DNA of 64,000 bases, from assembly GCF_037975245.1 (NCBI RefSeq), contig NC_092577.1:35146898-35210897 (forward strand). The letters are read 5' to 3'. This DNA comes from Apostichopus japonicus. Its lineage: Eukaryota; Echinodermata; Holothuroidea; Aspidochirotida; Stichopodidae. The position numbers were made by a program, and so were the translations under genes. This document shows, piece after piece, positions 6,801 to 62,886 of this stretch; the stretch's first letter is position 1, and each line of letters opens with the position of its first letter. The notes below the pieces were generated by a model that was not told where the DNA came from, did not search any database, and saw only the letters and a program-made list of their open reading frames with translations.

Positions 6801-7020
6801 TCCTTGTTAGTATACATTTGAACCCCAGCAATTTGAGATCCCTTATGTAAGGCTCTATGTGGTGTTGTAGTCTCATGAAATGCTCCTTTAAAAAAGATCA
6901 ACTTTTCAAAGCACACGCTGTCGGTGAATATAAAACATTGTTGCCATGTTTAATGGCTCATGTCAGTTTCATAGCTTTGAAAGGCCCTCATGTAAGGCAC
7001 TATGTGATGCTATGGTCTCA
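3874..7020. other. AIG1 3' flank and intergenic DNA, no supported gene
   Basis: No coding exon was recognised. The stretch holds the likely AIG1 3' UTR (AATAAA hexamers near 4692 and 5408), the 23-bp minisatellite at 4485-4651 and G/C homopolymer runs near 6500 and 6632. A short imperfect repeat (core ATGTAAGGC.CTATGTG) occurs near 6840-6890 and again near 6983-7027. The second copy is the one interrupted by the MITE at 7021. Confidence 0.6.
4485..4651 (+). repeat. 23-bp minisatellite, about 7 units
   Basis: The unit is close to CTGTGTGGTATGGAAACGTT plus ATC, repeated about seven times with point changes (AAACG, AAATG, AAACA). One unit has lost GGTATGG. The ORF that crosses it (repeated METLSCVV / ILCG words) is a by-product of the repeat and not a protein gene. 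Confidence 0.9.
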
Positions 7021-7208
7021 TTAAAGGGTGTGAAGACTCACACAAAAAGAAACGTCTAATGCCGGTAATTTGACCTAGTTTCGAATGAGGTGTAACAGAA
7101 GTGTAAGACACCACCATTGATCCCAGAAAATACACAGCTTGCTACCATCAATAATTAACTTTATCAGATGGCCGCACGCGGTTAGGGACAAGTCTTCAAT
7201 GCCTTTAA
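7021..7208 (-). mobile_element. TTAA-flanked MITE (piggyBac-like), copy 1, internally deleted
   Basis: Bounded by TTAA at 7021-7024 and 7205-7208. Terminal inverted repeats read AAAGGGTGTGAAGACTC on one side and AAAGGCATTGAAGACT on the other. Read on the minus strand it aligns to both ends of the copies at 17672-18042 and 62887-63258 but lacks about 180 bp of the middle. It sits against the 3' end of a LINE fragment, at its TTAA. Confidence 0.85.
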
Positions 7209-7400
7209 ACAAATGGATACGCATTCATGAATAAGAACGTCTCGAGTTCTTTCTGGAAAGTTGACACATGTGGGATTGTTTTCAGATGTAAGGGGAGACT
7301 GTTCCAGAGCTGTGGAGCTGATCTAGCAAAGCAACGTTCCCCATAGGTGAAAGCTATGGTCTCGTTACATGCTTCTTTAATGAATATCAACCATTCAAGA
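7205..7400 (-). mobile_element. Degenerate 3' end of a non-LTR retrotransposon (RT C-terminus)
   Basis: The minus strand encodes YGERCFARSAPQLWNSLPLH, followed by a stretch ending LETFLF. This is the conserved C-terminal tail of CR1/L2/Rex-type reverse transcriptases (consensus YGDRAFS..AP.LWNSLP, then S.FK..LKT.LF). The fragment is short with no upstream RT motifs, and lies just beyond the 3' UTR of the Pinocchio-like gene. Confidence 0.75.
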
Positions 7401-15100: not shown

Positions 15101-18100
15101 GATGTATAGCAATGCTGCACGCATTTAAGAGAGTTATAGAAGACTACACCACACCACACCATAAAGAACTATCCAGGGATTTGGACAACAGAATGAAACC
15201 AAATATAAGGTATACTATGGAACTGAATCAGCACTTTTAATGAAAAATGTTTCATTTCAGTTTTCACCGGGTTGTAGTCGTTACAGAAAACTACTGCACA
15301 TCGATTGGCAAACGGCCAAATTTACTGGTATTTTGTCAATAACTGACCCGATATATCAAAGCCTGAGTGTTACACAACATCCTATCTTTCTATCAAGATT
15401 TCATGTTGTCTTTATAATACATTCATGTTTGACCTACATTTCAGTATTATTGTTCTTTTGCATTGTTCTTTTGGGGGGGGGGGTAGGGGAGGAGGAGGGG
15501 GGTATGAGTTTGCTGAATGTTAGACCAAGTTTAATATGCTGTCACTGGGTCTTCATTTACATACATAACAAAAGTCACTATAATACCTTCTTCGTTACAG
15601 TTTCTTGAACCAGTGTCGACCCAAGAGTGTTAGCATGGGGAATGCTATAAAGTACGTCAAAATGCAGATAAGCAACATACCACAAGACAAGTCAGATACT
15701 GAGGTATGATTCTCCATATTTTTCATTCTTTCACACAGCAGCCCCCCCCCCCCCTCCCCACTCTTCAATCAATTGCAAAACCAAATTTGCTCTCCATCAA
15801 AGGATTTGGTGAATATGAGATGCCCACCACCACCTCAAATTCCTATTTCAGTGCAAAGAAATTTCTCCTATCATTTATTTCCTCTGAAGAAAGCAATTAT
15901 CCTTTTGTGAAAAACATAAGTAAAGATGAAGAGAGAGGCATTATTGGAACAATCAAGATTAACTAGTTACTTTATAGGCAAAAAGTCCAGGCATAAATTA
16001 AGATCTTACCTTCCTTGTTGAAAATTTCTCCTGGTTTGAGAATTTCTTCTGGTTGAGTAATTCTCCAGCTTTCTTGTCTGATCTAAGTTTCTAATTCTCT
16101 GTGATTTTTACAATGATGACATAGGTATTAGGTCTGACCCTTTGAGTTAGTTAGCAAGTTTAGTTTATAGTAAGATTAAAGATTTACATGTACCTAAATG
16201 CCTTCAAAGCATCTTGCCCTTTACTCTCATTATTAAGTTGATCTTTAAGCTTGAAGTCTCCTTGAAGCAGTTGCAATAGCTAAAATACAAAATAACACAT
16301 TATTTAGTCATCTTTTCGTCGATCTGTAAGTGTCTTTCATCTTCATGTAGCATTTGTAAAGATTAACAGTAGGAACTGGAATATTAATGTTCAAATAATG
16401 TTCCCCATCTTTACAGGCTAAATCATTACTTTGTGAAAGTATTGATTCTTATATCAAGAAGAAGATTTACCTGGCTGATGATGCAATATCTAATATTTTG
16501 ATTGGGAACAAGAAAATCAAGGACAAAGATGTCATTATGATATATGGATGGTAAGTTTGTGTCTGTGCCTCTGGCATCTAGGCATAGCCTGGACAGATAG
16601 GGTCCGGTGAGGGGCATGGGTGGGCCGGGCCCTCTTTTGAAATTACATATTTGGGGCAATGATAATTAGATGGAAGGGAGAGATGGATGAGAGAGGATAA
16701 GAGGATGGGAAGTGGACGGGAGGAACAACAGGCTGTTAATCCGGTATGTGTAATTTTCCTGTGATAATATCCAAGACGGATGGGGTCCGGTGAGGGGGAT
16801 GGGTGGCCCCGGGCCCTCTATTGAAATTTCTTATTGTAGCCACTGAAAATTAGCTACAAAAATATTTTGTTTCAAAATTAGGAAAAATTTAGCAAGCCTC
16901 ATTCACAGGCCTTCATTACCTTTTCCAGATAGTATCTTATGAACCCCTATTTAGATAGAAATTTTGTTATTTTAACTGATACTTGTCCTGTCGAAGCCTA
17001 CTCCTCCAAGAAACCCCAGATCTGCTCCTTATATCAACTCAACAAACAAGTAGACTTAGTACTTTAAAGGTGATCAGAGTTGTTCCCAAATATGATAGGA
17101 AATCAGGCAATAGCTACTGAATTGGGTTGTTTCCTACTTGAGGTCAAAGGTCATGATCCACATGTGTTAGAATGTGAAAACTTGTTACTCTAGGAGGGTA
17201 ACTCTTCACTTCTCAGATTTGACAAGTTACGTCACGGAAGGCATATATTTGCCTGGTTCATTTTCTCACTTATTAAAGTTCTAATGGACTTTCTCTCTTT
17301 CTCCAGTTCCTCTTTAATCGTCCGAATTTTATGCGACGCTCACGAGAAGGAAGAGATTAAATTCCGAGTGATAGTCGTGGACAGCAGGCCGAAGCAGGAA
17401 GGGAAAGAGGCTGCGAAGAGACTAATCAGATGCGGGGTCAAATGTTCATACGTTCTTATAAATTCAGTCTTCTATATGATGCCCGAGGTGATTATTACAT
17501 CACAATGTTCATACGTTCTTATTAATTCAGTCTTCTATATGATGCCCGAGGTGATTACAATGTTAACGGATGTGTCAAATTTATAATCCAACCTCCCAGC
17601 TTTGAAATAAGCTAACCATATATTTTATATTTAAAATCTCTTCATGTCTAGAATAGTACAGCACATTTTGTTTAAGGCATTGAAGACTCGCCTCAAACCG
17701 CGTGCGGCCATCTGAAAAAGTTAACTTGCTGTTGCTTGTAAGTGACATTTTGTTCGTGTCGCTACAAAATGCAGACAGTAATGAAACGGGATATCTTGTT
17801 ATCTTTAGCTGGACCTGAGATGTCCATCGCTGTATCGTTTATACACTGTGCTGTGGGTATTGACCATAGCTGTACAGTATGTAATGACTGTACACTAGTG
17901 TCTAATTACCGACGGTAGCAAGCTTTGTGTGTATTTTCTGGGATCGATGGTGGTGTCTAACACTTCCATTACACCTCATTCGAAACTAGGTCAAATTACC
18001 GGCATTAGACGTTCTTTTTGCGCGAGTCTTCACACCCTTTAAGAAAGGTGGAAATTGCAAGAGTTGAGTAGGAAACCAATCTGGCAATCCTTTTCCTCTC

Positions 18101-19570
18101 CATTTTGTGGAGCCCTTTGATGTTTGTTCCATTACATGAATAAGGTTGTTAATGTCAATATTTTGTTATTTCTTCCGCAGGTCACAAAAGTTCTTCTAGG
18201 AGCCCATGCACTGTTAGCTAATGGATATATCATGTCAAGGGTCGGTTCTTCTCTCATCGCCATGGTAGCCAAGTCACAAAATGTGCCTGTTCTTGTTTGT
18301 TGTGAGACGTACAAATTTAGTGAAAGAGCACAGACTGACAGTTTTGTCACCAATGAATTAGGTAAGTCTGACAATAGACCAAACTTGTTCCCCTCCCCAC
18401 CCTCTATATCCCCACCCTCTTTATCCCCACCCTCTTTATCCCCACCCTCTTTATCCCCACCCTCTTTATCCCCACCCTCTTTATCCCCACCCTCTTTATC
18501 CCTACACCTCTTTACTAGTTATGTCTCCCTCCTTCCTTCTCCCTCTGTACCCATCTTTTGTACACCATGCTCCTTACTTTTCACTTTTTTCCCCCCTTCC
18601 TTTTTAATCCTCACACATCCTGTCCATCCACAACACCCACTTAGTTCTGTTTGGCTTCCTAATCCCTACCTTCATTCCTCCTTTCATTCTTCATACTCGT
18701 CAGCAGTCTATCTTCATAGCCCTCATCTCCTAATCTGTTTCATCGCCTTGGTTCAGTCTATTTCATTTGTTCATTGGTCCAATTTAGTTGTCTGTCCAGC
18801 TGTCTAGGTTTAATGTGTCCTTCATTTTGTTGTCGTTTTCCTTAGTAACAATATGTCAAGCCCTCTTGACTTCATACATTGCTATACAAAATTATCAGAT
18901 TAGTCTCTAAATATGCTAGAAAAGTCTAGAAATGGTCAGCTCAAAATTCAATAAGCATTTTTGGTTTCCCTAGAAGGAAAACTATGAAGTCCCTCAAACC
19001 GACCTTACACAATTGTGAGGGGGACCGCGGATTGCATATTCGGCAATGACTATAACACGGATCGCAAATCGGTAATTACTATTTCGGTTAGATGTGTCCA
19101 ACATGGGAGCATACAGAAACATACTCAAAGTCGAAGCCAAAGTGAATTAATCAGGTCACACATACAGAGTCTATGCATGCTAAGTTCTTCAATACCGCCC
19201 TCTTTACCTAAGCTTTGATTACCTCCCTGAGACATTTAGTAGTCTAATGAAACACTTCTCAATGTATAGATATATTTTGGAGGGGTCAGCTCAAAAAAGA
19301 TTCTCTAGAAACCTTCAAGCATGTTAAGGAGCAATCCTGATGACCATTGATCTTTTAAAATTCTTCTCAGGGGACCCTGATGACCTGGTTCATAGCAACA
19401 GTTCTGTGGACTACCTGCGTAACTGGAGGTCCATTAAGAACCTTACCGTTCTCAACCTGGTCTACGACGTGTTCCCCCCAGAGCTGGTATCCATGGTGGT
19501 CACCGAACTTGGGATGATCCCATGCACTTCCGTACCGGTGGTCCTAAGGGTTAGGAACGTTGAGGGATGA
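12161..19570 (+). CDS. EIF2B4: Translation initiation factor eIF2B subunit delta, complete
   Basis: Ten coding exons: 12161-12418, 13113-13206, 13432-13526, 14374-14549, 15102-15209, 15601-15703, 16417-16550, 17307-17487, 18181-18361, 19371-19570. Phases join to give 509 residues (vertebrate protein about 520). The subunit belongs to the regulatory subcomplex of eIF2B, the cytoplasmic guanine-nucleotide exchange factor for eIF2 and sensor of phosphorylated eIF2. The N-terminus (about 28-120) is Lys-rich and low in complexity, as is usual. The Rossmann-like eIF2B domain follows, with [51 protein letters not shown] (exon 9), NELGDPDDL (about 441-449) and YDVFPPELV (about 475-483). Exon 8 ends in a 63-bp tandem duplication offering a second in-frame donor at 17551. 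The last exon's end is also duplicated past the stop. Exon 1 has a weak donor (GTCGGT). Confidence 0.96.
16587..16855 (+). repeat. Direct repeat pair in EIF2B4 intron 7
   Basis: Two copies (about 16587-16650 and 16776-16850) share GGGTCCGGTGAGGGGCATGG versus GGGTCCGGTGAGGGGGATGG, then GGGCCCTCT.TTGAAATT. Between them lies a segment (about 16688-16772) with GATGGGAAGTGGACGGGAGG and GGTATGTGTAATTTTCCT. That segment recurs in degraded form at about 24806-24895 in an AK2 intron, so this is a dispersed repeat family. Confidence 0.75.
17441..17557 (+). repeat. 63-bp tandem duplication across the EIF2B4 exon 8 donor
   Basis: Copies begin at 17441 and 17504. Over the duplicated stretch ending GATGCCCGAGGTGATTA they differ at one base (A at 17460, T at 17523), and that change is synonymous (both Ile). 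Each copy carries the end of exon 8 plus a GAG/GTGATT donor. Use of the second donor would insert 21 residues without shifting the frame. Confidence 0.95.
17672..18042 (+). mobile_element. TTAA-flanked MITE (piggyBac-like), copy 2, full length
   Basis: 371 bp between TTAA at 17672-17675 and 18039-18042. The left end reads GGCATTGAAGACTCGCC and the right end GCGCGAGTCTTCACACCC, imperfect inverted repeats of about 20 bp. It is nearly co-linear with copy 3 (62887-63258) and has no transposase ORF. It lies in EIF2B4 intron 8. Confidence 0.88.
18395..18515 (+). repeat. 15-bp pyrimidine-rich minisatellite, about 8 units
   Basis: Unit CCCCACCCTCTTTAT (first copy ends TATAT) repeated with little variation, starting about 33 bp after the donor of EIF2B4 exon 9. 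The long ORF at 18124-18807 is exon 9 read through its donor into this repeat. Confidence 0.92.
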
Positions 19571-21670: not shown

Positions 21671-24600
21671 TTACACAAACATGACTTTATCCTTCTTAGC
21701 CTGTGCAAATACTGCTAAGATACTGGAATATACACTGCCTGGTTCTCTTGCTGCGTCTATCTTAGCATGAAGACCCTGTTTCTTGTAGTAGTCTACTAGG
21801 GGTACCGTCTGTGTGTGGTACGCCGTCAGCCGTTTCTTCAGCGTCTCTTCGTTGTCGTCTGATCTCTTGATCAGTGGTTCCCCGGTTACCTAGACAACGT
21901 CGGAAAAGTGAAAGTGTTATTATGAGGTTAAATCGTCGATCTCAAGTTAAAAACGATGACATTAGGATGTATATTTGTGGATTTGAACCATTTCAGACAG
22001 ACTCGATTGCAAAAGTCCCTTTCTTCTTTGCATCTGGTACGAGGAATTATGGCACATGTACAAAGACTCTACTTTTACCGGTGGTACTTCAACAACTCGG
22101 CAGTGAATGTCCGACCATTGCGCATCAAAATATTATTTTTCAATATTCATAGTAAACTTCCCACAATAACAAGTAATGGACTGGTTGGCAACAATGCATT
22201 GCAACATTAAAATTCAGGGTTTATTCGAAGTGAAAGTGTACTTCCACAAAGTTCAAAAGGATACATTTCCTTAGCATACTGCATATATGTATCACAAGCA
22301 ACAATGTTTCCTATAGAAGTTTTGAGAAAAGATGTGAGTAATTGGGTGAGATCATCTTATCACTTTTGAATTTTCATAGGGTTTAATAGATACTCCAGAT
22401 ATGACATGAATATTCATGATAATTACTCACATCATCCTTCATGTGTTCCTTTGGCGGACTGAACTCTTCGTGGTACGACCTTCCGCTTGGTTTGTGGATC
22501 AGCCTCCCTGTGATCCTCTTTATAAGGAGTGAATCGTCGATGCCAAACTCAACCACCGCATCCAACTTTGCATTTCTCTGCTTCAGCAGGCCATCCAGCT
22601 GTGAAACAACAAAACAAAAGATGAAGAGGAGAAAAAAGAACCACTTTAAATACTGATTACCATGGAAACGAGAGTCAACTATCATTAAATGCTTGGGGCT
22701 TGACGGATTGGAATTTGTTTACCGGTTGGAAAAATCAAAAATATTCTGTATTAGTTTTCATCATTGTAGAGCTGATACAGATATGTTCACATTTTCTATA
22801 GCCAGATTGAAGGCTCCAGGTTTGTCTCATATACAGTAGGGTTCTACATGACTCATGTGTACACAAGCTGCTATGTATACTTCTTTCTACTCGTGCTTGT
22901 ATAGCAATTTACCCCATTCCCTGCAAGGCTTCAGAGTGAACAGAGGCGGAAACCTTATAATCATTATATCTCAACAAGCTGCAGGCTGCCACACCCTAAT
23001 ACTGGAACATGTGTAGCTTCCCTCTAATGAGCAGAAGAACCATATTGTTTATGGTGGAGGTCAAAGGTCAATGTGCTCTTTAGGCGATAAATGATTATTC
23101 CCTTTTCAAGTGAAAAATTGCAAATTTTCAAATATCAATAATGGTCAGTAGAGATGAAGAAAGCAATCCCTCACACTCAATGTCTTTTGGAAGGGACATG
23201 TTGCAATCTCTTGTAAACAAGTTTTTTTTAATTTGCTTGCCTCCAACGATATTGCAAAATACACATGCTGTAAGTTACTCTATATTTCTGTACTATGCAA
23301 AGGCATATAGTACAATACAGCTTTATCCCTCCACCTACGCTGGAATGTAATTGCTCACAACTATACATCAAGTAATTTTGAGGTTTATGAAATTTCCTTC
23401 ACATGAAATGATCCAATGTAAATCAAAGTATATACAACGTCTTTTCACTGGTGTAGTAAGTTGGCCATTTTGCTGTTATGCAATACCTACCTTTACACCT
23501 TTTATTTATAATACCATACACCTGGTATGACATAGATATTGGGATATATATGGTACTGCCTATATCTAGTAATGGCAGTATAGTCTGTGTATTGACAATG
23601 ATTACATATTACATATTGCTGTAGCTTCTGTGATGGACTGACAATACACAGAATCATAGCCACTGTGTGAACTGTAAACAGTGTACAGGAATTCGTAAGT
23701 GAAGGTGTGCTGCTGTAAACCTACCCAAAGGCCAAGTAATCATCACCAACTTGGAACCAAATGAAACCTTAGAAGTGAAAACACTTCCTGTCAAACAAGA
23801 ATCTTCTGATTTCAGGAAGTTTCTATATGATAATTCTATTTCCAGAAGACACAAACAAAACCAGGACAACTGGCTTAATATGACAGAGATCTTTGTGAAA
23901 GACAACTCCCCTAAACAGCTAAGGATAAATATTGATCCATTGGGGAGATATCCTTGTTGAAATGGTTTAAGGTCATTTTCCGGAGGTTGTCATTTTTAAA
24001 TCTATGATGACATGTCAATAGTTCCACATAGTGGAATATTTTTCTTTCTCTTTGTTTTTTTTGCTTTTCATATTTTCAAAGTAGAATGTTTTGAACTGAA
24101 ACCAATGCTATCATTAGGTCATGATACAAGGTTCAATATTTTAGATTCAACATTTAAATTGAGGAATATAAACAAGGTTCCCCCTCTAAGATGATTACTA
24201 TCTCTCTGCAATTTTCTGGAGATTTTTGTGGTAGATGAGGGGGTTAAAGTGAAAGGCATAGAATGTGAAGTACCTACAGACTGCATAATTCAGATTACCA
24301 ACCCGCAACCCCCCCCCTTCCCCCTTCCGTGCAGCCATTTTACAGAATAAAGAACATCCAATGGGCGTTTTACCAAGAATTGTACAGTTTGCTTGTTAGT
24401 TTTACCTTCTCTGCTTGGACAACTGTCCTTGGAAACCCATCAAGAAGAAATCCATTTTTGCATTCTGGGGAGTCCAGTTTATTGTCAATCATCTGTACGA
24501 CCAGCTCGTCGCTGACCAACTGACCGGCATCCATCACCTTCTTCACTTTCTTGCCTAGCTCTGATCCAGATGACACTACTGCCCTCAACATGTCCCCCGT

Positions 24601-27600
24601 TGCTAGGTGACAGACACAAAACTTCTCCACCAGTTTAGGTGCCTGTGAAGAGTCAATAGAGAGACCTGATTATAAAAATCAAACTTGAATCAGAACATTA
24701 ACCTTGTTTTTTGCTCCTTGCTTTGACTAATAATACAGATTCAGTTCAGCACCCTGTGCACTCTCTTTGAAAGTTACAATAACTTGCTTCCATTTCATCT
24801 TTCATGGGAGGTGGATGGGAAAGGGAAAGAGGGTGGGAAGTAGACAGGAGGCATTACAGGCAGTTGATCTGGTATGTGTAATTTCCTATGATAAATTTGG
24901 TATTAATTACAGTACAGAGTACTCTAAATGTTGTGTGTCGCAAAAACAATTTATATATATATATACTGTATATGCTACCAGGATTTTAAAAATGTTTGCA
25001 TTCTCTCAGAAAACCTTGCCTCCCTACAGTCTTTCATGAAAACATGCACTTTAAAATACCTCAACAAGTACGCACAATACTTAGTTGTACAGTAATGACA
25101 CCTGACAAAGCATTGGCTTGGGCGCAACGGAAGCCTATAGTGATAGGTCTATATTGTGCACGGAAAAATAATAATCAAATAATGAAAGCTGTAACTAGTA
25201 CTGGGGACAGTTACATTAGAAGTACTGTACTTTGCATTTAAACAATACACTTTTTGTTCATTGAGCATTGCAGTATGGGCGGCCTTTTGGGCAAAAAATA
25301 CAACGATGAAACAAGAGACAAACAGACAAGAACAAAGATGAAAAGGAACAATGATAAGAATGTAGATAAACGACATTTACTGCGCGAACTAAATGAAAGA
25401 TCGCCCCCACGATTGAAATTTTCCCATAGATCAAAACGAAAGTTGGGACAGAATCAAAAGGAATAGCGGGCAAAAACAAACGGCCGTCAAAACAGACGGC
25501 GATATTCTAAGCATGCCTCTTTTTCTTAGAAATACCCTCAGCATACGGCAATGGCGCAGCTCGAACCGGATCTTGCTGCATAGAAATTTTGTGTCTTAGC
25601 GTTATAATTATCAGGTCGATATGTACTTGGTCACGGTGACAAGGCCTGTCTATGATAACCATTATGACAGTGTCCCTCGTCTGCCTCTGCCCTGGCTAAA
25701 ACATTCCCTTGTGGGCACAATGACAACACGACAATAGTCCAAACAGTTCACTGACCTTGTAAAGCACTGTGCAGCATGGTAGGACAGAAGTGTCGTGCAT
25801 ACAAGATGTCGTAACTACATTTCGTAATATAACACAGTCAAGGAAAACCAAAACAGCGGAATCTGTCCCTTTTAGTTCATAGGCATTTGTTCGTTTCGCA
25901 TGAGAGCGTTTGTAATAGATTTCATGCGAATGTCCTTTTGCTTACAACATCTTCATTTTTATGGTGGCGATTGATCTTTTTGTTCTGAAATGTGGATCAA
26001 TTTTGACTTCCCTGTGCTCCTTGTTTATCCTTCAGTGGCATGTGTTTGATATGTTTCGCTAAATGATTGGTTTTTGTTTCTCTTTTTAACTGTGCCTTTC
26101 ACAATTTTTAGTATTACATATGTTTGTTTCATTTTGCCTATTTCTTCTTTTCCAATTTTCTTTCTTGTTTATTTGTTTCATCGTTGTATTTTTTGCCAAA
26201 TGGCTGCCCATACTGTAGATGCAAGAATGTTTGCAGACAATGGTTATAGGTACTATTAGCCAATCAAATCTCAGGAAATTTGGAAATGCACCATTGACTA
26301 CTGTAGTTTCAGAATGAAAATCTTTGTAACAGGAGTCTTGTTAGCTCTGTACTTGGCAGTTTTTCAAACAAATTCAATCATCTATACAAAGGATTGGAAG
26401 AAATTTCAGTTCTTTTGACAAGTTGTGGTGTTTTGAAAAGAAAGAAAGATACTTAAAAAAAGTGTTTGTTATGCTTTGCATGGACCTAGATGTGAGAGTG
26501 TGTACTACAAAAAGTTTGCGTCCCCTGGACGCAAGCAATTTGAAGGTTTGGCAAACCCTGGCTAAAAGATTGCGTCCCAGACGCAGAATCCTGCGTTTGT
26601 AACAATGCTGTATATATCTTTATATATATATAAATATATCAATATATATCTATATATATAAATATATCGATATATATATATATATACCATTTTATGGCAC
26701 CAATGATCCTAAACCTAAAAAACTTGCAATGACAATTGTAATCAGTAGATATACATATAATTCCATGTACTGTGTATTGACCATAAACTAAACTAACCAA
26801 AGTATATATACAGAATAGATCTGATGGTCCTCATCACCTCCCCCCTCTCCCCCACCCCTTCTTTCCACACCCTATTTTGTCAGATACTGTACATGATGAT
26901 GCTGGATGCCTGCTAACAAACTCCCACCCAAGAACAAAATGACTAACCCCTTGACTTTCCTTCCTAGATGATATATTTTCATCCATGTTTATTTGAATTC
27001 AAGATCACACTTTAATATTCTTTACCTGCATTCCTTTACCAGCCCCTGGTGGTCCTAAAAGAATAGCATTTATACCAATTCCAACCTCATCTTCATTGAC
27101 TTCCTCAACTGGACCACTTCCTTCTAGCTCAGCGGCCATTTTCTGTTTTTTTTCCTTCCAAAATTGTCAAAATTATTTTGAAATTGAAATAATAATCAAG
27201 ATCCCACTGTAGTAACGCAAAGACTAGTCTGCTGTGTGTACTTCTTTGGTTATTAATTTCCTTGCCTTTCCTTCAAAATTGCAATTTCAACTTTTTAAGA
27301 CTAGAGAAGGTTTAGCTTCAACGATCTATAGCCGTAACAGTCGGGAAATAGACAGTGAGGTGAGACAAACGTTGTCCAAATAATGGTTTCGAAAAGTCTG
27401 TGAACAGATAATATCTAGCACGACAAGGACAATTTCACTGCAGCCCAAAATTAATTACTCCAGATTTGTGTGACAGTCTGTACGAACAAGGAAACACTAC
27501 TGTCCGTCTGTTATAAACCTGTATAGTACCACAGCACCATAAGCAACTTCAGATCAATAATCCAAACAGTGCAATGTTGATTAAATCTTCCTCGGTACTT

Positions 27601-30600
27601 TTAACGACCAAAATCCCACGATATCACGACAGGCCTCAAGGTTAAATTGAACACTCTCTCGCTCATGAAACCTTTCGTCCGATGATTCCAATTAATGATG
27701 CTATAAACGTTAACACTACTGTAGAAGCACTTAGGTACTTTGAAATTAGTAGTACTGAAAAATCCAACACACATCTAGATCCACAGTAGGAGTATGTTGA
27801 CAAGTCTGGCTTGCAATATTTGCTATTTTTTTTATGACACTCCCTTAGTTATCTACAGGCCTGCATTTTTAAGAACATGACGTCAATTTGCTATATGGTA
27901 GGAACTGTTAATACCGTCTGCAATATCAATCAATGATATGTGCATGTGGTAATATTAAACAGATTCTTTACAGTTAGTAATAATGTTACGTTGCTAGCTG
28001 GTTATGAAATACAACGCATTTTACAACACACTAGTCCAAGCACAGCTAGAGTAGTATAAAAATGTCCCAGGACAGTGGATGCTATATCCTGGTGTATACA
28101 CTACTTTTCCTGCAATCGAAAAATGTTAACCTTCCCTCGGAAATTTCCTGGTACTGAATGTATCAAACAGGAAATGTATAGTGTGGTCTGCATAGAGCTA
28201 GTACAGCCCTATACTGCAGATATCTGTGAAAATAAATATGCTGATCCGATCTATGGAGATCCTTGCCTTACTAACACTTGAGCGTTTTTGAGTGTCTTCG
28301 GATTCACGGTAGAATCTGGTATGTACTGTGTACTGAAGGGTAATAAATGACAAGCATAACAGCTGGTCCCTGGTATTCAATACGAGTACAGTGTACTGTA
28401 TATACTGTATATTACAGTGCTTCAGATGTGCGTCAGTTGTTCACTATGGAATCCCAGGGCAAGTAAAATTGTTTTGTTGTATGTGACATGTACACTAACT
28501 ATATATGGGTATGCTTAAGTACTGATTCCCAGATCCCAGGGTACTAACAATAATGGTAGTACTGTATAGTTGTAGCACGGTGTACTACTATGCATGGCTA
28601 ACTAGTACAAGTCTAAATTGATTGGTCACACGTACCTACCAGGGCAGTTTTACCTCCAAGAGATTGGAATGATGAAAACTGATTGCAATTAAGAGTGATG
28701 TGGATGTTTTAAATATTTATGGAGCATAACGGGGGGGGGGGAAGGGGGAGGGGTTGCCTGAGGATGAGTAATGGGTATCACAAGCTTTAATAAATTAAGA
28801 GACAGATGAGATGACGATTGATGTGTGGGATGGGTAAATTAAATACAAACAGGGGACTGATTGTGAATTGATCTGATTCAGCATGTGTTTGAGGGGGTTT
28901 GTAGTACTATTGAAGTGCTAATGACCCTGCAATTTAGTGTGGCCCTTCTTTGGTTTATATGCATAGGAAATGTAATTATGTTGTAACTTTTGTAGAACAT
29001 ACAGTATCTTTGTTTAAGAAGATGGAGAAAGAAAGGGGGTGGGGTGGGGGGGGGTATGGAGAGTGTCAGGGAGAGAGAGAAGCCGGAAGGGGAGTGGAAG
29101 GGATACTTGTATACTGTTGTTAATGTGCACAGTATGGGTTGTAATTACTACAACTGCATACCTTTAGGGAGGGGAAAGGGGAGGGGAGTGATGGGAGAAT
29201 ATAATATATTGTTACTGCTAATGTGTATTGTATTCATGTATTGCAAATTACAACTACTGTAGGGTACTAGGGTTGAAGTATTTATCTTTGATTACACCGA
29301 CACTATTACTGTATATTAATATGGCAGAGACGGGGACCATGTTGATGCAGGATCGGGGAGGTGGAATTAGAGGAATGGGATGAGGTTGGTTAGGTAGGTA
29401 GGACTGATATAACAATACCTCACTTAATTTAACTGTCCAAACGTACCTGTCTCCCCCATACTGTACATGAGCACTCCTATTGTACCCACTGTACTGTGCC
29501 AAGGTAAAAACCTGTTGTAACATTTACCACTCCCCGACCCCAGCAAGGCCATTGCCCACATTCTCTTTCTTGAATATAATTCAGAACCCCTATAACCCCC
29601 TCCCCCCCTACCAACATGTACACTGCAAGGAGTTTAAATCAGTCTGTTCCTTCTACAACCCCACACAGTCAAATTAACTACACCTGTACTGTACTATACA
29701 TACAGTATGTATATAATACATACTGCAATATATATACAGTATAATAGTGTACATACATACAAAAACTGCTCAAGGAGAACCACATGATGAAACGCACATA
29801 GTTTTCTGACACAGTGAACACTCAGTTTGAATGCAGCATTCCAGTATGTCTTCAATACAGGACCTTCAGAAACTGATGTGTTTGCATAATCTTTGAAAAT
29901 ACTTGTGAATTTGTGAAACAAGGCTTAAAATACAGTGATGCTAACCTTTGTGTACAGTATAAGCCTTTTCCCTTGAGGGAACATTACTAATTCTACATGT
30001 GGGAGTTCATGGAAAAACCAGTGCTTAGTAACAAGCATACTGCAAAAGTAGTGGAAAGACATGTGAGGTAGTTTCAAAGTATCTAACAACCATTTTCAAA
30101 GAAGTTTTGTGCTAATTATCTAAAAGTACTAATAATGCAAGGCTAGAATTTTTCCATTTTAGTAATCAATTTTCTAAATGAAAAAACAAAGCTATGGGGC
30201 AGGGATACAGTAATTTAGGCTACTACAACAAAACTAATTTTTTGTCTAAGGTAAGTTACCAGACCTTGGAAACTGCAGGGGTAAGGGAGAAGATGTCACC
30301 CAATGTCGCCCCTTTTCAGCGATGGAGGCTGGGTGGGATGGGGGATGGGGAGGGGTTAGGAATACAACAATGAATAACTTTTATACAGGGTGAATACATG
30401 AGTATAATGTTACAGTGAATGGGAAGACAAATACTGGAAGGAAAAAACATAAGAAATGCTTTTAACAACTAGAACTCAATACTGGTTTTTAAACACTCAA
30501 CTGTCCAAATGTTATAAACACTACTGTGCATGTCTGCAATGTGTACAACACATTATGTGCAGACAATGCAGTTGGGTTTTGGTTCACTAGGTGAGGGGTA

Positions 30601-33600
30601 AAATTGAACATTTATAATTTTTAATAAATTCATAGGTAAAATATTTCTCATGACCTTTGTTTTTATCTTCTTCTCTTATTTCTCCTCCAAGGGTACAGTA
30701 TATCACTGAACTGTATAGCATTAGCTTGTTCCATACCCTTTGTGGGACCTTTTATCTGATTGGCAAACTATCTTGTTTGCTTAGATAAAATGGCAGATAT
30801 ACAGGATAGTGTGTAGGATGACTGTGTGAAAGGTGACACAGTCATGTCAGTACAGAATACAGTATGTAATTTACTATCTGCATAATGTTCAAATCAGTAT
30901 TAAATCTAATTTGCTTGGTTTGTTATGCAAACAAATTCATAATGTACAATTTAAAAGCTCTTCACTACGGTAGATCCATCCCATATATAGATTCTGTGGT
31001 CTTTCTACAGTGTCTCTGCAAGCACAATGGATGTGTTGTACATTAAGGAATACGAAAATATTTTAGGGTCCAAAATTTTGTAAAGTGCTTTTTGAGGTTG
31101 ATGAATATTCTTTCACGTAACATATTACGACTAATTTTATCTTTACATGACCTAGTGATACAAGATACTGTATGTTAACATTTTACCTCGAAAATATAGA
31201 AAGGAAAACAAACAGAAAGTTACATATATATATTTTGTATCTTTTGTGGCACTATGACATCACAGATTCACAGAATTCACAAAATGACAACTCACAAACA
31301 TGAATTCTTAAAACTAGGATAGAGCTCTCCCAAATTAAACTCTAGGAGATAGAGCTCTCCCAAATGGAAAAAATTTTCTTAGCTGTTTGAGTGAGTTGTA
31401 CATCACACTACAAGCTAAAATGGTGGTTGGGTTTGTACTACTTTGTAATAGCTCACCATATAAAGCCTGTGGTATAGTAAGTACACTGCATGTACTACTG
31501 TAAAGCCTGCCAGGGTTTACCTTTACAAAGTAGTTATATGTAGCATACACAGTTGAACATTTCATTCATGAACAATAACGTACATGATACGCAACTAGCT
31601 GCATGTCATACACAATTTTTTTGTAGTTTCTGGCAGCGATATTACTTAATTTCAAATTTTACGAACTTATGAAACTTTGTACTGACATGATAATGGAAAT
31701 GACTGTAGGTAATTTTTAATCATTGATTAAAAATTAGCTAAATATTAACTGAAAGATACCAAGTGCAGGGTTGATTTTATGCTATTTTTGGTCACTACAA
31801 AATGCAAACCTTGCCCACACTGTGCTTATTTATAAATGGTACTGTATGGCGTCTTCACCTTAACTTTGTTAAATTATCACATGTTGAAGGCATGACTTTG
31901 ATATCATATTGCAATGTTCTGATAGGAAGGAGGCATGGAGGTTGTGAAACAGGGAATTAAGATGGTGGAAACACTCCAACATGATGGAAAATTTATGATT
32001 GTAGCTTAGATCACAGATTGCAGAGTGCCTCATGTGGTGTGCAGAATTAAGGTTGTTGCTACGTACAGTACATGCATTAAAGAACAGAATACAGATACAG
32101 AATGCATTAAAATCTGTTAACTGTCACTGGCATTTAGCCAGTACAACTTTAGCACAAATTTCGAGGCAGGTCTGTGTACATCCACACTACAGTATTGTGA
32201 CTCAGATACACAGTACTGTTTATCATACGGCTGTTAGGAGAGAGGAGAGGGGAATTGGAAGGAAATAAGGAAAAAAATCCTTTTTCTTCATCACCATGGC
32301 AAAATCCTTGTTGTCCCACTTATTTTACACTGAATGCAACTTTTAACATTGTTCAACGTCCACTGGGATACATGTGTTTGTTTGTGTCAGTATTCTCAAC
32401 AAAAATTTGAAGTAGAAAATTTGTAAAGTGAACTATATATAATAAGCAACATGAGCATTGATGGCTGTTAGCCTTTGGGGTTTTGCTACCAAAACTCCAA
32501 CTGTCCTCTCCACCCCACTCATACAAATTAAGTAAAATTATTGGTTTGTTACAACATTGTGGATATACAATAAACCGGATCTGAGAAGTAATAAAGTTAC
32601 ACAAACTTTCCAACAGCCACTTCAAAAACAAGAAACATTTACTGTGAAACATGCTTCAAAGTCAATACATTTGAAAACTTTGAAAAGGTCATCAAAAATT
32701 CCTTTGCATTCAAAATTTTAATAGTGCTCACATGAAGATTCAATCCTCCAAAATGGCTTAGAGGTTGTTTCGGCAAGGTTATAAGGGTGGTAATTCGAAA
32801 ACGATATGAACAGTTGGTAAAGATAGAATTTTAACTGTTTACAAATGTCTAAATTGTAGCATATTGGGACCAGTATCACTGTACTTGGCATTATGACATA
32901 AAAATGTAGTTGCATACATTTGCCTGGCTTTCTGAGGAATATAACATTAAAAGACATGTCATGCATAAATATCCTTAAGATTCTTCCAAGAAGTAAAGTG
33001 TTATCCCCCTAAGCTTCAGGATATGTATTCCAAATGAATATAGATTAGGTTACCCTAAAAAACAACAACAAAAACATTGAAAACTTTGTACAACCCTAAG
33101 TTAGGCATTAGAACTGTTAGTGTTACTATGCTACTAGATCTAGGGGCCTAGAACTTGTAGTACTAGTACTATAGCCTAAGCCTAGGTCAAAATGGTTTCA
33201 GCTATTCTCCGCACACGGTACTTTCCGCTGAAAAATTTCAACAAATTGTAACTGCTGGATGAACAGTGGGGTAATAACAGTTGCTTTTCGCATGTCTGTT
33301 TGGTCGATAACCATGATGTAAAATTTCAAAGAATATGTTCCCCAGCAGTCAATATTCTTGAATATAGGTAGGGCCTAGGCTAGGTCTTGGCAGAATTCCC
33401 AGGCCACAGTAATATTACTTTATTAGACCTCATGAGGCATACGCCAAGGTTAGTCTACATGACAATTTCTGCAACACAGACTTGCCACTGAGGATTCAAT
33501 GATAAAAGTTCACAACTGTCATTTGAACCTTGGCAATTTGTCAAACTTACCTGGGTGCCTTTTCCTGCTCCTGGTGGTCCAAGTAGGATAGCATTTACAC

Positions 33601-33649
33601 CATCGCTATCGTCAGCTGTAGCAAGTTTAGGAGCTGCCACAGGTGCCAT
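21671..33649 (-). CDS. AK2: Adenylate kinase 2 (mitochondrial intermembrane-space type), complete
   Basis: Minus-strand exons 33551-33649 (ATG, first exon a), 24406-24642, 22431-22598 and 21671-21889 (stop TAA) join in phase to 240 residues, the normal AK2 length. It catalyses ATP + AMP = 2 ADP. The P-loop [10 protein letters not shown] is at 24-33, the AMP-binding stretch [12 protein letters not shown] at 42-53 and FLLDGFPRT at 98-106. The LID region with [12 protein letters not shown] and [18 protein letters not shown] falls in the third coding exon, then [12 protein letters not shown] and a C-terminus KDKVMFV. The LID and the short tail are those of AK2 rather than AK1 or AK3. A second first exon (27026-27139) can replace exon a. 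The intron between exon a and the common exon is about 8.9 kb. The gene is divergent from the PRPP synthetase and convergent with EIF2B4. Confidence 0.96.
24806..24895 (+). repeat. Dispersed repeat copy in AK2 intron
   Basis: GGTGGATGGGAAAGGG ... GGTGGGAAGTAGACAGGAGG ... GGTATGTGTAATTTCCTATG matches, with gaps and substitutions, about 16688-16772 in the EIF2B4 intron. It has no coding potential. The class of repeat is unknown. Confidence 0.6.
25271..26215. mobile_element. 945-bp nonautonomous element with ~44-bp terminal inverted repeats
   Basis: The left end starts CAGTATGGGCGGCCTTTTGG and continues with GCAAAAAATACAACGATG. The reverse complement of the right end starts CAGTATGGGCAGCCATTTGG and continues with CAAAAAATACAACGATG. 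About 44 bp match with three differences; beyond that only scattered AAACAA/GAAAA similarity remains. No transposase ORF is seen inside and no clear target-site duplication at the edges, so the superfamily is not assigned. It lies in the AK2 intron between first exon b and the common exon 2. Confidence 0.75.
26520..26690. repeat. GCGTCC palindromic cluster followed by AT microsatellite
   Basis: TTGCGTCCCCTGGACGCAA is a near-perfect inverted repeat, followed 50 bp on by TTGCGTCCCAGACGCAGAA and TCCTGCG. Immediately downstream (about 26610-26690) is an impure TATATA/AAATATATC microsatellite. It lies in the AK2 intron. Confidence 0.7.
27026..27139 (-). CDS. AK2: AK2 alternative first coding exon b with its own P-loop
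   Basis: ATG at 27139 on the minus strand opens 38 codons: [20 protein letters not shown], then [18 protein letters not shown], followed by a donor GTAAAG. Phase 0 matches the common exon at 24642, so splicing yields a full AK2 of 245 residues. The sequence just upstream is purine-rich with no pyrimidine tract, so this is more likely a first exon with its own promoter than an internal exon. Compared with exon a, the P-loop codons differ at most synonymous sites but the protein is the same, except that Thr after GKG is Met. The N-terminus is more acidic than in isoform a. Confidence 0.9.
27140..33550. other. AK2 intron between the two first exons
   Basis: 6.4 kb with no further recognisable exon. 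It is rich in short TACTGTA/TACAGTA words (dense at 28387-28425 and 29690-29755). It also has G-runs near 28730 and 29040 and a short direct repeat ATAGAGCTCTCCCAAAT near 31319 and 31350. The part next to 27139 should contain the promoter of first exon b; no TATA box or CpG island is obvious. Confidence 0.5.
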
Positions 33650-35109
33650 TTTTATAGTATTTTTCAGATGCAGTCGTTATACCTTACCACGACAATACTG
33701 GTGATTTATTCACACAATAAGAGAATGATGACTTCGCACAACTGATTGAAAGAAGGAATATAAATGGAGACAATATACCTGTTTGCTTGGCAATATACAG
33801 GTCGAATCGTGTGTAAAATACCACACTAAGAATTGCTGCAGTAACGTAGTGTAACTGATTTGTATGACTGTTTACACAGTACAGACACCGCTTGTCCACG
33901 TGGTGTATATGCGTTTAGTGTAGAAGCGAATACGGGTCCGAAAGAGTTACATTAACAACTTTATAAAAGATAGAACTTTGAAGCTGCCGTTGGAATTTCA
34001 ACATTGCTAACTCATTAAACATGAAATTAGATACGGAAAATTGATTACTTAGACCTACTTAGCCAAACGATGAATTCTCATTCCTATTTCATTTACCATA
34101 TAAGCTTCCTTACTTTAGTGTCTGTGATTGCCAAAGTACGATGAACTTTATAGAGGTGACGGTAAAATATTGACCTGGAATTGATGCAAAGGACTGGTGG
34201 TAAACATTATTCAGCCCAGCCAGCACCCGTCCTGAGGATTATTAACAAAAACTTGGCTGTAACATAACCATCATTTCAGTTTCGCGAAGTACCCAAGAAT
34301 CTTCTAATAAAGGTAGTAGTAACCAGAATTTTAGTTTGACTAAGTTAGACCTAACGTTAGGATCTAGTATATGGTATACTTACGATGTTCAGATCAGCTA
34401 GTCTACGTTATCGCGTAATCAGTTCCAATGATATATCTGTACTTGAAAATGGATTCTCAATATTTTACTAACATCGACCAAAGCTCACTAGGGCCCGAGA
34501 AGCTAACAAATACTTGTAACAGACCTATTATTATTATTTAGGACTTCCGTGACTTGGGCTTAGGCTATGCCCAAATTACTTCTAAGTTCTATACACTAGT
34601 TATATTAGTTAGGGCTTAGACAGTTAAAGTTAGACAATGCAAATACCTTTTCATAAGCATGATTTGTAATTGTAAATATGATATCGTATAATTTAAAATG
34701 ATTTTAAAATTTATCATAGCAATTATTTCAATTAGGTGCCTTTGCCATCCAATTGCCAATGTATCAGAATTTTAGGTAACTGCTAATTCTGTGGTAAATT
34801 CTTAATAATGTCGTAGTTGGTTTTAACTTATAATTGAATTAATCTCTTTCTGCCTTTAATTTTTCTGAATATCCTAAAAGGTTGGAATTATATTTGGCTA
34901 ATTTTTTTTACACATCTACATCCTTCATAGATCTTTAAAAACTTTCTTGAATTCTCATTAGGATATAAGAACAAGTAAAACAAGATGGTATAATAATATT
35001 ACAAGTTTAAGTCCCTGTGTCTGGCTATCCTGGTCAATACTTACTCATAAGTAACTCCAGATGGCTTATGTTTCTGATTCAATAAAGGGACCTAATATAG
35101 GTGTCAGTC
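33650..35109. promoter_or_regulatory. Divergent intergenic region between AK2 exon a (-) and the PRPP synthetase (+)
   Basis: 1.46 kb separates the two start codons, which point away from each other. No ORF of note is present. A TATAG followed by GTGTCAGTC directly before the PRPP synthetase ATG could be a 3' splice site, implying a noncoding first exon within this interval. A shared promoter is an inference from geometry only. Confidence 0.4.
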
Positions 35110-44300: not shown

Positions 44301-45450
44301 GTCAACTGAAAGTAATCATCAAATTCCGAATTAGGAAACGTTCCGAAATCCATAAAAGCCGCATGGCGCCATCGAAATTAACTACAGTTGATAATAAATG
44401 CCATAATGTTGTCTTTCAGTTCCGCAAGTTGCTGTTAGGTTTTTCTCGCCAACCGGGAGCTAAGAAAGCAACACTTTGCGAACAAACTTCTTTTAATGAT
44501 TATTATGCATTTCATTATATACCATTTGCTATTACAAAATGTCATGGGTGTCTTTTAGAATATTTATGAACTTCACAACGTATTTATGAACACTGATGTG
44601 TAATGTACGTCTAAGTTTGTCATGCAGCTCATTCATTCATTGTAAAGATTTATTGGCATATCCTCAGTTAAAAGGAAAGAAGACTTTATTAAATATGAAA
44701 CTATGAAAAATACATCTAGTGTAACAGTTTTATGAAGCTCATATTTGGAATATACCTTACGCCAAACGAGTACCAGCTTCGATCTATGCTTGATCGAAGG
44801 GTCAAATTATACATACGTATTTCGACCGTGTCTTACCAGAACATGTGTTTAGTGTGAACATATCTGTAGAAATTGGATCGTCACTTCCGGTGTACAAAGA
44901 ATTGAAAGGACACACTTCTTTCTCATGAACTTTTCAGAGATCTTAACTTTGAAATGAACCTAACTTACAAAATAGTGCAGTCCAATATTTGACCTAGAAA
45001 TTCGGAATCGATCCATGAATAAGACGATCGGAACAGTTTGCTATATGTTTGGCAATCAAAGAAGAATGTTCAACCAGATATTAGTAAACCGCTTGAAATA
45101 TACATCACATTATAAGAATGGTTGTAGTTTGATGGCTTGTTCCACTTTTAATTAGGGATAACTTTCCAAAGAACGAAGGATGTTCCCCCTCCATGTCGTC
45201 TGTTCGGTAGCCACACGCTACCGATGTATACCATCAGTCGCATATCCTCTACATTTGCAATACGTACTACGTGTACTCATCATTTGTAGTAAGTGTAGTC
45301 ATTATATTATGTGTGTGCACAGTGAAAATGGCGACCACCAGTGTAAGGTCGACCGTCGATTTCTTATGATCTTTTTGGATTAATTTGGAATTAATCATCT
45401 AATCGTGCTAGTTACTATGGATCTATGTCATTAATGTGTTTGAGAGAATC
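44301..45450. other. Upstream region of EXT1
   Basis: No recognisable exon apart from the probable EXT1 5' UTR directly before 45451. The interval is AT-rich without clear repeats. A small CpG-richer patch around 45200-45240 could mark the promoter or 5' leader. Confidence 0.4.
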
Positions 45451-46355
45451 ATGCAAGCCAAAAAGCGATATGTTTTGGTGACGTTTGGAGGAGTTTTATT
45501 GTTTTTGCTGTATTATGGGGGATTACACATGCTGCATACAGTTGGACCAAAAAACCACAACAATGTACGTTCGTTGTTAGAAGTGAGCCTACCATTAACG
45601 TTAGATATTACTGGGGAAGAATTATCCACTAAATCATTGAAACAAATGAAGTCAGAGAGAGATAGTATTTATAATAACCGAAAGTGCCGCATGGAAACAT
45701 GTTTTGATTTTAACAGATGTAGAAAAGGTTTTAAAGTTTATATTTATCCGTCTTCACAGACGGATCCCATCAGTGCAAGCTACAGCAAAATTTTGACATC
45801 AATAAGAGAGAGCAAATATTACACAACAGATCCTGATGAAGCCTGCCTGTTTGTACCTTCTGTAGATACCATAGACAGAGACAAGCTTAGTACAAAATAT
45901 GTTCATAATGTAAAAGAAAAAATAGAAAGTCTCCCATATTGGAATATTCACGGTAGAAATCATTTAATATTCAATTTGTATTCAGGGTCCTGGCCTGATT
46001 ATTCAGAAGAATTAGGATTCAATGTTAATCAAGCCATTTTAATCAAAGCAAGCTTTCCAGTAGAAAATTTCCGCAAGGATTTTGACATTTCTTTACCTTT
46101 ATTTGGAAAGACACATCCACAGAAAGGTGGTTCCAAGGGAGATCTTCAAGCAAATAATTTTCCAGTGCAAAGGAAATATTTGCTAGCCTTTAAAGGGAAG
46201 AGATACCTTTCAGGTATAGGATCTGATTCTAGGAATGCATTGTATCATATACACAATGGAAACGATATCATTCTATTGACAACTTGTAAACATGGCAAAG
46301 ACTGGCAGAAACACAAAGATGCCAGATGCGATAAAGACAATGCAGAATACGACAG
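45451..46355 (+). CDS. EXT1: Exostosin-1 (heparan sulfate co-polymerase), first coding exon
   Basis: ATG at 45451 starts MQAKKRY, the same N-terminal peptide as vertebrate EXT1; the reading frame extends upstream only to a GTG. The exon encodes 301 residues and ends in GACAG/GTAAG (phase 2), where the vertebrate first exon also ends. A type II signal anchor spans about residues 7-28, followed by a variable stem, then CRMETCFDF (79-87), GFKVYIYP (93-100), ACLFVPSVDTIDRD, GRNHLIFNLYSGSWPDY, FKGKRYLSGIGSDSRNALYH and LLTTCKHGKDWQKHKD. These are the start of the exostosin GT47 domain, which acts with EXT2 in the Golgi to elongate heparan sulfate. Later exons (second half of GT47 and the GT64 domain) are not in the window. 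Confidence 0.96.
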
Positions 46356-49300
46356 GTAAGTGGTGACTGTGATTACCCGTAGGTCGTGATCTTTGACACT
46401 GAATTTAACCCAATTTTATTTTTTCACTTTTAAAATTTTACAGATAATTAATGGCATAGGTTAAGTGTCACAAAGATTGGTAGGAGTATAACATATTATG
46501 TAGTTTATACCTCTAATTTAAAACACAAAGCAAACACTTCTTGAAATTGCCATTTGGTTGAAGGTAGGAAATCATCCAAAAGTAGCCGCAGATGTTCTGT
46601 TCATTGCCCGGCCATTACGTTTATGGCTGCAGGCCGTTCCAGGTTAATGCAAGGTTTATTTGTGACAACCATCATTAACCTGTAAAGATTGCCAAATGGA
46701 TTAACAAAATTGATTTGCAACGGCTTATTGCCTACTTACAACATTATGTTATTTGGCATTGGCCTATCATTTCTTGGATGACTAAATTGTCATTCAGACT
46801 GGGTGAGAATGTTTTATAGTTTGCACCTCTAAATGCTCAGATGTGGTACTCTCTGGCTTTCTCTGTTGAGAACGACGATCTCAGTTGAATTCTCATTTTG
46901 GTGGGTATCGGGAGAGAACTTGAAGAACTGTAGTGAACGGTATAGTATTTACTAATAAACTTAATATACTGAATAAAATCATCTGATTGAAAAACTCTTC
47001 TTCAGCAATTGGTGGTCATATATTCGGTCATTGTCACCGGGCCCACCCACTGACCGGGCCCATGTAGTTTGCACTGACATCACATCAAGTTAAGTTGCAT
47101 ATTTTCACTGGTTCAAAGATTCAGTGTGTGATGCCTCTGCCCCTTGCCCCCAAGGGCGTATTGAGATGGGGTGGGGGTCGAGGGGCAGAGACGACCACCG
47201 CCACTTTATGGAAATGAGAACAAATAAAAATAACCAGATCTGAATCACACAAAATGCCTGACATTTAGGTATATAGGGTACTGTACAATGAGGCATGTGT
47301 AATGAGCTCAGTTCAACAGAAACTGAATCATATCTGGTGTACCAACTGTAAGGAATGGGTGCTCAATTAAATTTTGAGTTGACAAAATACACACGTACTG
47401 TACCACCAATTGAACTGACAAGCAGTATACTGTACTGTAGATAGCTGGCTGATCTGATCCATTGTGAATGTGTGATAGAATGCAAAGTAGAGAAAATATA
47501 GGCATTCTAAACATGTAGCATTAAATGGGGAGGGGTGGGGAATGGGGTTTGAGGGAGCGATTGAGAAATAAATATTTGGTGGAATTGTAGGGTCAGTTGT
47601 AGAAAATAGGAACTTGACCCACCACCCCAGACAGCCTGAAATCATGCACACATTACTAATGTTTTTAACTTTTAGTTTTTATTATTGAGAAAATATATTA
47701 CTGATTATTAATTAGTGAAACTTATTGATATGCATAACACTTGTTTGAGGCAATAAATGAACTTAGGCCTATCTAAGAGAGTGTCATTCCATAGGTCGAC
47801 TCTATAGGCTTACACAGGTCTCTGTAGTTCATAGGTTGTAGGTGCAGACCTACTTTTCAAAGCCCCCCTCCCCATTTTGTGATCCCAAATCCACCAGACC
47901 TCTGTGATAATGGTCAGTTGAACTCAACAGTTGTGTACGGCACTTTGACCAATACAAAATTTAGACACCCAGAATCCCAGATGATGAAATTATCTAGTGG
48001 GCGGCTTGGGCCAGAGAAATCTCTTTCATTAAACAAAAGGGAGGCAATTGGCAAGAGAAATGATATGCGTTTTGCGACCACTTCTGGTATGAACTACTGA
48101 ATGACCTTGGCAGAGTTGTCAATTTATAGAACCTTTGGCAAAACTTTCCAAATAGTCGTAATCAATGTACTGTAATTATGTTCATTTTAGAATTAGAACA
48201 ATATCCTGTTTCCAATTAGGTAGCGTGAGATACTGATGTGAACTTTTGTGTAAATTTGAGTAACATCCTGCACTTCAGGTGGGCTGTCAGTTAATTGTAA
48301 ACCTCTGTCCACTGGAAAGCACCCCTTGCTGCCTTGCAACAGTCACACGGATATTCAGAGTTCAAAAAGGAAGGGACGACTGCTCCTTTCTCCTCAACTC
48401 TTGGGGCACTTTAAAACTAATTTCTGTGTTCAAATTGTCGCATATTGCGATGGCTGCTGAGGGAATCACTCTCTGGGCCCCTACAGAGGCTGTGCCTTCT
48501 GTTCACTTGCTTTGCCCCTCCCCCATTACAGCAATTGCTGGATCTGTTTTCCCCAGAGGCCCAGATCCTTCTGAGCCCCTTCCCTCTGGATAAAAGTTTG
48601 TTTTTAGTTGACTTTGCCAAAACCTGTTTAAGATGGAGCTCTTAAAAACAAGACTATGGAATCTATGTGCTGGTTAGAAAGTATAGCATAAATTTACTTT
48701 TTTTCTGGTACAACCTGTGAACCCTCTGACTCTTTCCTAGACCCTTCCCTTATCCACTCTCCTCCCCTCACCCACCCTTTGTCGCTTACCCACTCTCCTG
48801 CCCTCACCTGCCTTACAGCAATCATGTAAAGTACTACAGTGTGATAACAAAATCCCATAAAAATATGTATTGTGACAATCAAATCTCATAAAAATATTAA
48901 CTGTGTGATGAACGAATCCCATAACAATGTGAATAGGTATCTGGACAATGTCAATGTAAGTTTAATATCAAATAATCAAGAAAAATTTAACACAATGGAA
49001 ACTGTCTGAACTCTGAAAAGCCTTTTGCATGTCAGTAGTACAGAACAGGAATTTAAGTGCCTGGATTGACATTATCGACATTATCTTTTAGAATGGAATG
49101 AAATCATTAGTCACTTGATTATTAAGTTTCATTTCATGACAAAATCAGCTAATTCTGTCTTTGACTTGAACAAATTCTAATCTTCGTGTAAGCTGAGCTT
49201 CTAGATGACATCATTTGGTGTAGTGTGGTGGGACTGCTGACTGTGAAGAAACCACAAAACTTTCACATCATGACAATCTATTCCATTATCCAACTGATAT

Positions 49301-61769: not shown

Positions 61770-62366
61770 AGCAATTCACAGCGCGTACTCCCTCACCTCA
61801 TATAACCTATGCATTACCGTATTAACCTCGCTCTAGCATCTGGCAATTTGTCTGTATGTAAGTGTGGCCATCTCCCTTCCGTAATTGCCAGCTGTTACGC
61901 AAGTATCGCTCTCTTATTGCTCTCACTAAATCCTAAGATTTCAATTACTTCGTCTAAAGTTTATCGTTGTTTTTGTAATTCTTTTTCATCTATTCAACGT
62001 CCTGCACGTTTGAACTGCTTTTTGTCTTTGAAACGTTTTTTCTTTCGTGATTTTCGAACGTTTTTTTGGTTTACCTCGTGAACGTGGTTCACGTAGCGTG
62101 GCTAGGCCCGCACCTTAGTGTAGCGTTCCCCTAGCGTTTATTTACTTCCACGTACAGCAGTCGTGTACGTGGGCTTACTTGCAGTTAAGTAACTGCTTTG
62201 TTTAGTTCTTCATACTGTTTTCGTACAGCAGTCGTGTACGTTTTCCCTTGGCAGTAAAGTAACTGTTTTTGATTTAGTTTTCACAGCTTCAGGTCTCGGA
62301 GATTTCTCGAAAAAAAAAAAAAAAATTTTTCGGAGATTTCTCGGAAAAAAAAAAAAAAAAAAAAGG
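61770..62366 (+). repeat. CpG-richer leader with tandem repeats, upstream of the gag-like ORF
   Basis: Composition changes to CpG-rich words (ACGTTCGAACG-like, CACGTAGCGTGG). Two ~70-bp units start near 62150 and 62221, each with GTACAGCAGTCGTGTACGT and CAGT.AAGTAACTG. Two CGGAGATTTCTCG plus poly-A units follow at about 62296-62365. It looks like the 5' untranslated or terminal-repeat part of a retroelement whose ORF starts at 62367. Confidence 0.55.
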
Positions 62367-62858: not shown

Positions 62859-62886
62859 AAAAAAATTGGGGGGGTTGTTTGTCTCT

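Follow-up and report, generated by a model that had tools for sequence, protein, structure and literature searches.

What happens to an enzyme when the exon that encodes its nucleotide-binding loop exists in two versions within one gene? A locus of Apostichopus japonicus raises this question. The window (the whole stretch of DNA that was analysed, 64,000 nucleotides long) holds a gene for adenylate kinase 2 (AK2) that has, in addition to its first coding exon (exon a), a second copy of that exon (exon b) in which the P-loop threonine is replaced by methionine. To judge from the sequence, the duplication of the first exon is probably old, and exon b has probably been kept and put to use as an alternative first exon of AK2.

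Gene structure and AK2 identity

The AK2 gene lies on the minus strand and has four coding exons (1a, 2, 3 and 4), with exon 1b sitting within intron 1. The coding part of exon 1a (33551..33649, minus strand) starts at a methionine and that of the duplicate first exon 1b (27026..27139, minus strand) encodes an acidic N-terminus; each ends in the P-loop with a phase 0 donor, in phase with the exon 2 acceptor at 24642. Exon 2 (24406..24642), exon 3 (22431..22598), which holds the start of the LID domain, and exon 4 (21671..21889), the last coding exon and the one that carries the stop, are on the same strand and common to both models. Joined to exons 2–4, exon a gives a protein of 240 residues and exon b one of 245 residues, with no internal stop; all exon joins are in frame and both models end at one stop, at 21671. 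An earlier note on this DNA had described two exons ending in the P-loop in phase 0 and leading to a common downstream exon, and its coordinates, strand and frames are borne out.

Both models carry the domains of an adenylate kinase in order, with Pfam ADK (210.7 bits in the a model, 206.6 bits in the b model) followed by ADK_lid (53.5 and 52.7 bits). Of the 97 PDB sequences matched by the a model, the top four bear the name AK2 or isoenzyme 2 (E 1e-107 to 3e-105). Searched alone against 177635 PDB sequences, exon b finds a mitochondrial AK2 chain (9fl7_D, E 0.0023), and each of the 29 matches listed up to an E value of 10 carries the name adenylate kinase. Compared with a hand-entered human AK2 sequence, exons a and b reach similar scores (36.6 and 35.4 bits, respectively), and exon a is labeled “canonical” because of its GKGTQ rather than a closer overall match to the human protein. 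The P-loop pattern GxPGxGKGT is satisfied by exon a and departed from by exon b, in which, as the note had read, Met replaces Thr directly after GKG; isoform b would be an AK2 gene product that differs at this point. The window contains a single match to the degenerate pattern GxPGxGKGMQ, whereas none of 100 shuffles contains one, and the exon b P-loop is not a product of chance. No other adenylate kinase-like sequence was seen in intron 1 when the 81 stop-to-stop frames of at least 45 residues between 24700 and 33540 were inspected by eye.

Several further features lie in the window outside the AK2 gene. A dispersed repeat is present at 17671-18046, at 62886-63262 and, in parts and in the other orientation, at 7020-7213, the copies being ~90% alike. 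An open frame at 18121-18804 (plus strand) matches a portion of the IF-2B domain (Pfam, E 1.1e-21) and is probably an exon of an eIF2B subunit; a short tandem repeat occupies 18394-18514. A long open frame at 45412-46359 (plus strand) encodes the greater part of an Exostosin GT47 domain (E 2.7e-36), and a cysteine-rich open frame at 62193-62858 (plus strand) resembles CEP104_ZnF only weakly (E 0.024, short of the curated threshold).

Start codon, splice donor and upstream sequence of exon b

The start codons of exons a and b both have an A at -3 and a G at +4, and an in-frame stop lies 10 codons upstream of each. The donors read CAG/GTAAGT (exon a) and CAG/GTAAAG (exon b). On a hand-entered donor matrix, applied to the 1430 GT sites of a 25 kb stretch of the minus strand, the exon a donor scores 8.7 bits and is equaled by no site other than itself (1 of 1430), and the weaker exon b donor scores 3.9 bits, a value reached by 1.3% of the sites.

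Just upstream of the exon b start codon we looked for an AG behind a clearly pyrimidine-rich tract and found none. This absence of a good acceptor fits a first exon. It also bears on a reading in which exon b is an internal exon spliced in behind exon a, so that the protein would contain the P-loop twice, or serves as a decoy that lowers AK2 output. Two in-frame AG dinucleotides, 3 and 15 bases upstream of the b start codon, could in principle serve such an exon, but pyrimidines make up 19% and 56% of the tracts that precede them, poor for an acceptor, and a second P-loop would probably upset the folding of the protein; we consider this reading very improbable.

A raised CpG observed/expected ratio like that found near these exons is what a promoter would show in an animal whose gene bodies are methylated. 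The ratio is raised 5' of both. It is 0.76-1.01 on the putative promoter side of exon 1a (33650..34500, minus strand), and on that of exon 1b (27140..28000, minus strand) it is 0.78, 0.88 and 0.70 in three windows of 500 bp that begin 0, 100 and 300 bp upstream of the exon, against an intron 1 median of 0.29. These three values are reached by 8.9%, 4.7% and 13.6% of intron 1 windows, respectively, and the rise near exon b is not unique, since the part of intron 1 at 25.0-26.0 kb is higher still (up to 1.12). As evidence for a promoter of either exon, the CpG ratio is only suggestive. This CpG-rich part of the intron is bounded by inverted copies of ~90 bp that are 80% alike (25265-26222), and it could be a mobile element, perhaps of a small foldback type.

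Origin and selective history of the duplicated exon

The assembly from which the window comes (671.6 Mb in 35 contigs) was searched with exon a plus most of exon 2, which gave seven matches, namely exon 2 (98% identical), exon a (97%) and five others (30-49%), and with exon b, which matches only itself and exon a. The idea of a second AK2 gene elsewhere, of which exon b would be a stub, was rejected because exon b, like a strong match to exon 2, is found only once in the assembly, as searched with exons a, b and 2. We can give hardly any credence to an error of assembly or sequencing by which exon b or its Met codon would be absent from the real genome: a single assembly is the source, but the features of the exon are intact and it has a single place in that assembly.

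Between the 1.6 kb stretches around exons a and b one alignment of 56 nt stands out, which is mostly coding and stops shortly after the donor; four more alignments are 10-16 nt long with E above 1, and over 200 bp of 5' flank, compared without gaps, the likeness is no greater than in shuffles. The two exons are homologous, in the same phase and directed to the same downstream acceptor, and they are best read as belonging to a single AK2 gene with a duplicated first exon, the duplication appearing old enough for flank similarity to have vanished. A once larger tandem duplication that later shrank is a possible origin. In the extreme form of this origin, the AK2 gene was once duplicated in tandem and the second copy has lost all its exons but the first, exon b, which has no present function. 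Such a history accounts for the copying of a first exon together with its own 5' flank, although the extent of the duplication is not readable because the flanks of a and b are unlike. We nevertheless judge it unlikely, as no second strong match to exons 2–4 is present among the 25 best matches in the window and the assembly, as searched with exons a, b and 2, holds exon 2 as a strong match just once; taken as an origin alone, a tandem duplication is compatible with present use of exon b.

The last 16 codons of exons a and b differ at nine positions, seven of them synonymous and two affecting the amino acid (V/I and T/M), the core reading VNAILL in exon a where exon b has INAILL. Where the earlier note had counted at least seven synonymous codons over a protein unchanged apart from T/M, the seven are confirmed and the second part is corrected by the V/I difference. 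Over 17 codons dN is 0.10 and dS 0.94 (Nei-Gojobori), with five of the ten fourfold sites differing, and a bootstrap of the 16-codon core (300 replicates) gives a dS of 0.46-2.60 where defined and saturated or undefined values in 14% of replicates, rates that are rough because the core comprises only 16-17 codons. In all replicates with defined dS, dN is below dS. When about half of the a-b divergence is assigned to a neutral exon b (a branch of 0.45 substitutions per site), simulation predicts ~9 changes in 16 residues, and two or fewer arise with a probability of 0.0004 (5000 trials). These results argue strongly against neutrality of exon b over its whole history and do not speak against a recent death. 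The note’s claim of an old duplication with both copies under protein-level selection would accordingly be strongly upheld for most of the life of exon b by dN, dS and the neutral simulation; with so short a core, recent relaxation on exon b is compatible with the same data.

A recent death deserves the most attention among the alternatives, and we hold it to be possible, if considerably less probable than present use. It supposes that exon b once worked as an alternative first exon but is no longer used, its methionine and its weaker donor being the first signs of decay. In 41% of simulations a neutral period of 0.1 substitutions per site leaves two or fewer changes in the 16 residues (5% at 0.2), the exon b donor is the weaker of the two, and Met is rare at this site of the P-loop (see below). 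The start context, frame and donor of exon b are, on the other hand, all intact, the rest of the loop is unchanged despite seven synonymous changes, and the ATG of the methionine requires two changes from the ACC of exon a, or one if the ancestral codon was ACG.

Upstream of the core the N-terminal peptides differ in charge: that of exon a has 3 D/E and 1 K/R in 18 residues, and that of exon b has 7 D/E and no K/R in 23. The contrast and the acidic character of b agree with what the note had claimed; the a peptide, described there as neutral, is mildly acidic.

The P-loop methionine and known systems

The methionine of exon b occupies the position of Thr23 in adenylate kinase 1 (AK1), two residues after Lys21. 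In a study of human AK1, the T23V mutant is active (specific activity 250 versus 110), and fits to its kinetics raise Vmax from 142 to 1850 and Km(ATP) from 1.9 to 12.9 mM, both values being extrapolated because the fitted Km exceeds the 0.5-4 mM ATP tested; its response to ATP is almost linear and kcat/Km is hardly altered (PMC3537612). The P-loop Thr hydroxyl is lost at the equivalent residue in both cases, with the difference that the AK1 change is an engineered Val in the human enzyme and the present one a natural Met in AK2. The idea that the Met form must be crippled is weakened by this active mutant with higher fitted Km and Vmax. Because T23V is active with an altered ATP response, isoform b is more likely retuned than dead, provided that what holds for Val in AK1 also holds for Met in AK2.

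Methionine at the P-loop Thr position appears to be rare. In 84,980 prokaryote species genomes the pattern GxPGxGKGMQ has 21 matches, a raw count and not a proportion of P-loops. Four of the 21 (L001, L006, L010 and L020) are adenylate kinase-like and confirmed by Pfam ADK, L006 being truncated at a contig edge; the remaining 17 were assessed by visual inspection of their translations. All four also depart from the LDGFPRT motif, reading SGLPRN, DGIPRN, SGSPRT and SGSPRT, respectively, where exon 2 of the window has DGFPRT; L010:1390-2055 (Patescibacteria) and L020:6898-7566 (bacterium) combine GKGM in the P-loop with SGSPRT. Isoform b, in contrast, would have all its other exons in common with isoform a. 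The narrower pattern GPPGxGKGMQ has no match in the prokaryote genome collection, and in viral contigs the Met (ATG) pattern has none, the threonine pattern being found in at least 40 stretches. Among the other GxPxxGKG loops of the same genome, those of loci L064 and L067 carry Thr, and a pattern search found no such loop in L065, L066 or L068. Three of these adenylate kinase-like places (L064, L065 and L068) lie within ~9 kb (G000:C22:15910436-15919475), one of them with a stop inside the match, and the row is possibly a multi-exon, multi-domain or tandem adenylate kinase.

Among known variants of adenylate kinases, AK2A and AK2B differ at the C-terminus and are not known to differ in the first exon, and AK1beta, which adds a myristoylation region, is not known to have its P-loop replaced. 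These variants nonetheless offer two parallels: AK1beta, a p53-inducible variant of AK1, is an adenylate kinase gene variant with an added targeting part, and for the splice variants AK2A-D of the very gene considered here different kinetics are reported (PMC2680645). In coq-2, the mutually exclusive exons 6a and 6e remodel the core of a quinone-synthesis enzyme and change its product, although they are internal exons that govern substrate choice and not ATP contact (PMC7434440). A precedent is the muscle myosin heavy chain of scallops and Daphnia, an ATP-using enzyme whose gene has mutually exclusive exons (cluster 2) for the P-loop; these are, however, internal exons picked by splicing, the protein is a myosin and not a nucleotide kinase, and in scallops the main variation is in loop 1 (PMC3912159).

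A literature search that covered few subscription papers found no alternative P-loop or duplicated first exons in an adenylate kinase and no text with AGKGMQ or SGKGMQ, and the silkworm AK2 paper PMC3583204 contains no word beginning with isoform, exon, variant or splic. The earlier note’s suggestion that exons swapping the P-loop of an adenylate kinase are undescribed survives in that none was found; its novelty is lessened by the muscle myosin exons (PMC3912159). Alternative P-loop exons are known as a kind, and the adenylate kinase case would appear to be new, pending expression of exon b.

In the reading that we favor, the first coding exon of a single AK2 gene was duplicated long ago and gave rise to two alternative first exons, each of which would be transcribed from a start site of its own and spliced through its phase 0 donor to the shared exon 2. 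The cell would then make either AK2a (MAPVAAP..., GKGT) or AK2b (acidic N-terminus, GKGM), and since the P-loop is part of the exchanged exon, the choice of promoter would alter the N-terminal tail and one ATP-contacting side chain together. AK2b would most likely be an active adenylate kinase with an altered ATP response (weaker saturation), perhaps in a different location or tissue. We infer the transcription of exon b, its promoter, and the kinetics and location of its product; the weaker donor, the 4 bits less in Pfam ADK and the rare Met are points against its use. More tentatively, AK2 in this lineage may be a two-speed enzyme governed by promoter choice, in which the exon b Met has long been selected for a high-Km, high-capacity form that, unlike the saturating housekeeping enzyme, works in proportion to ATP and has a different address; we think this stronger version rather unlikely.

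If exon b is used, the locus would be a natural experiment on a highly conserved part of a universal enzyme, with one gene yielding two adenylate kinases that vary in the P-loop. Promoter choice would then be tied directly to ATP kinetics, and AK2b would be the natural counterpart of the AK1 T23V mutant.
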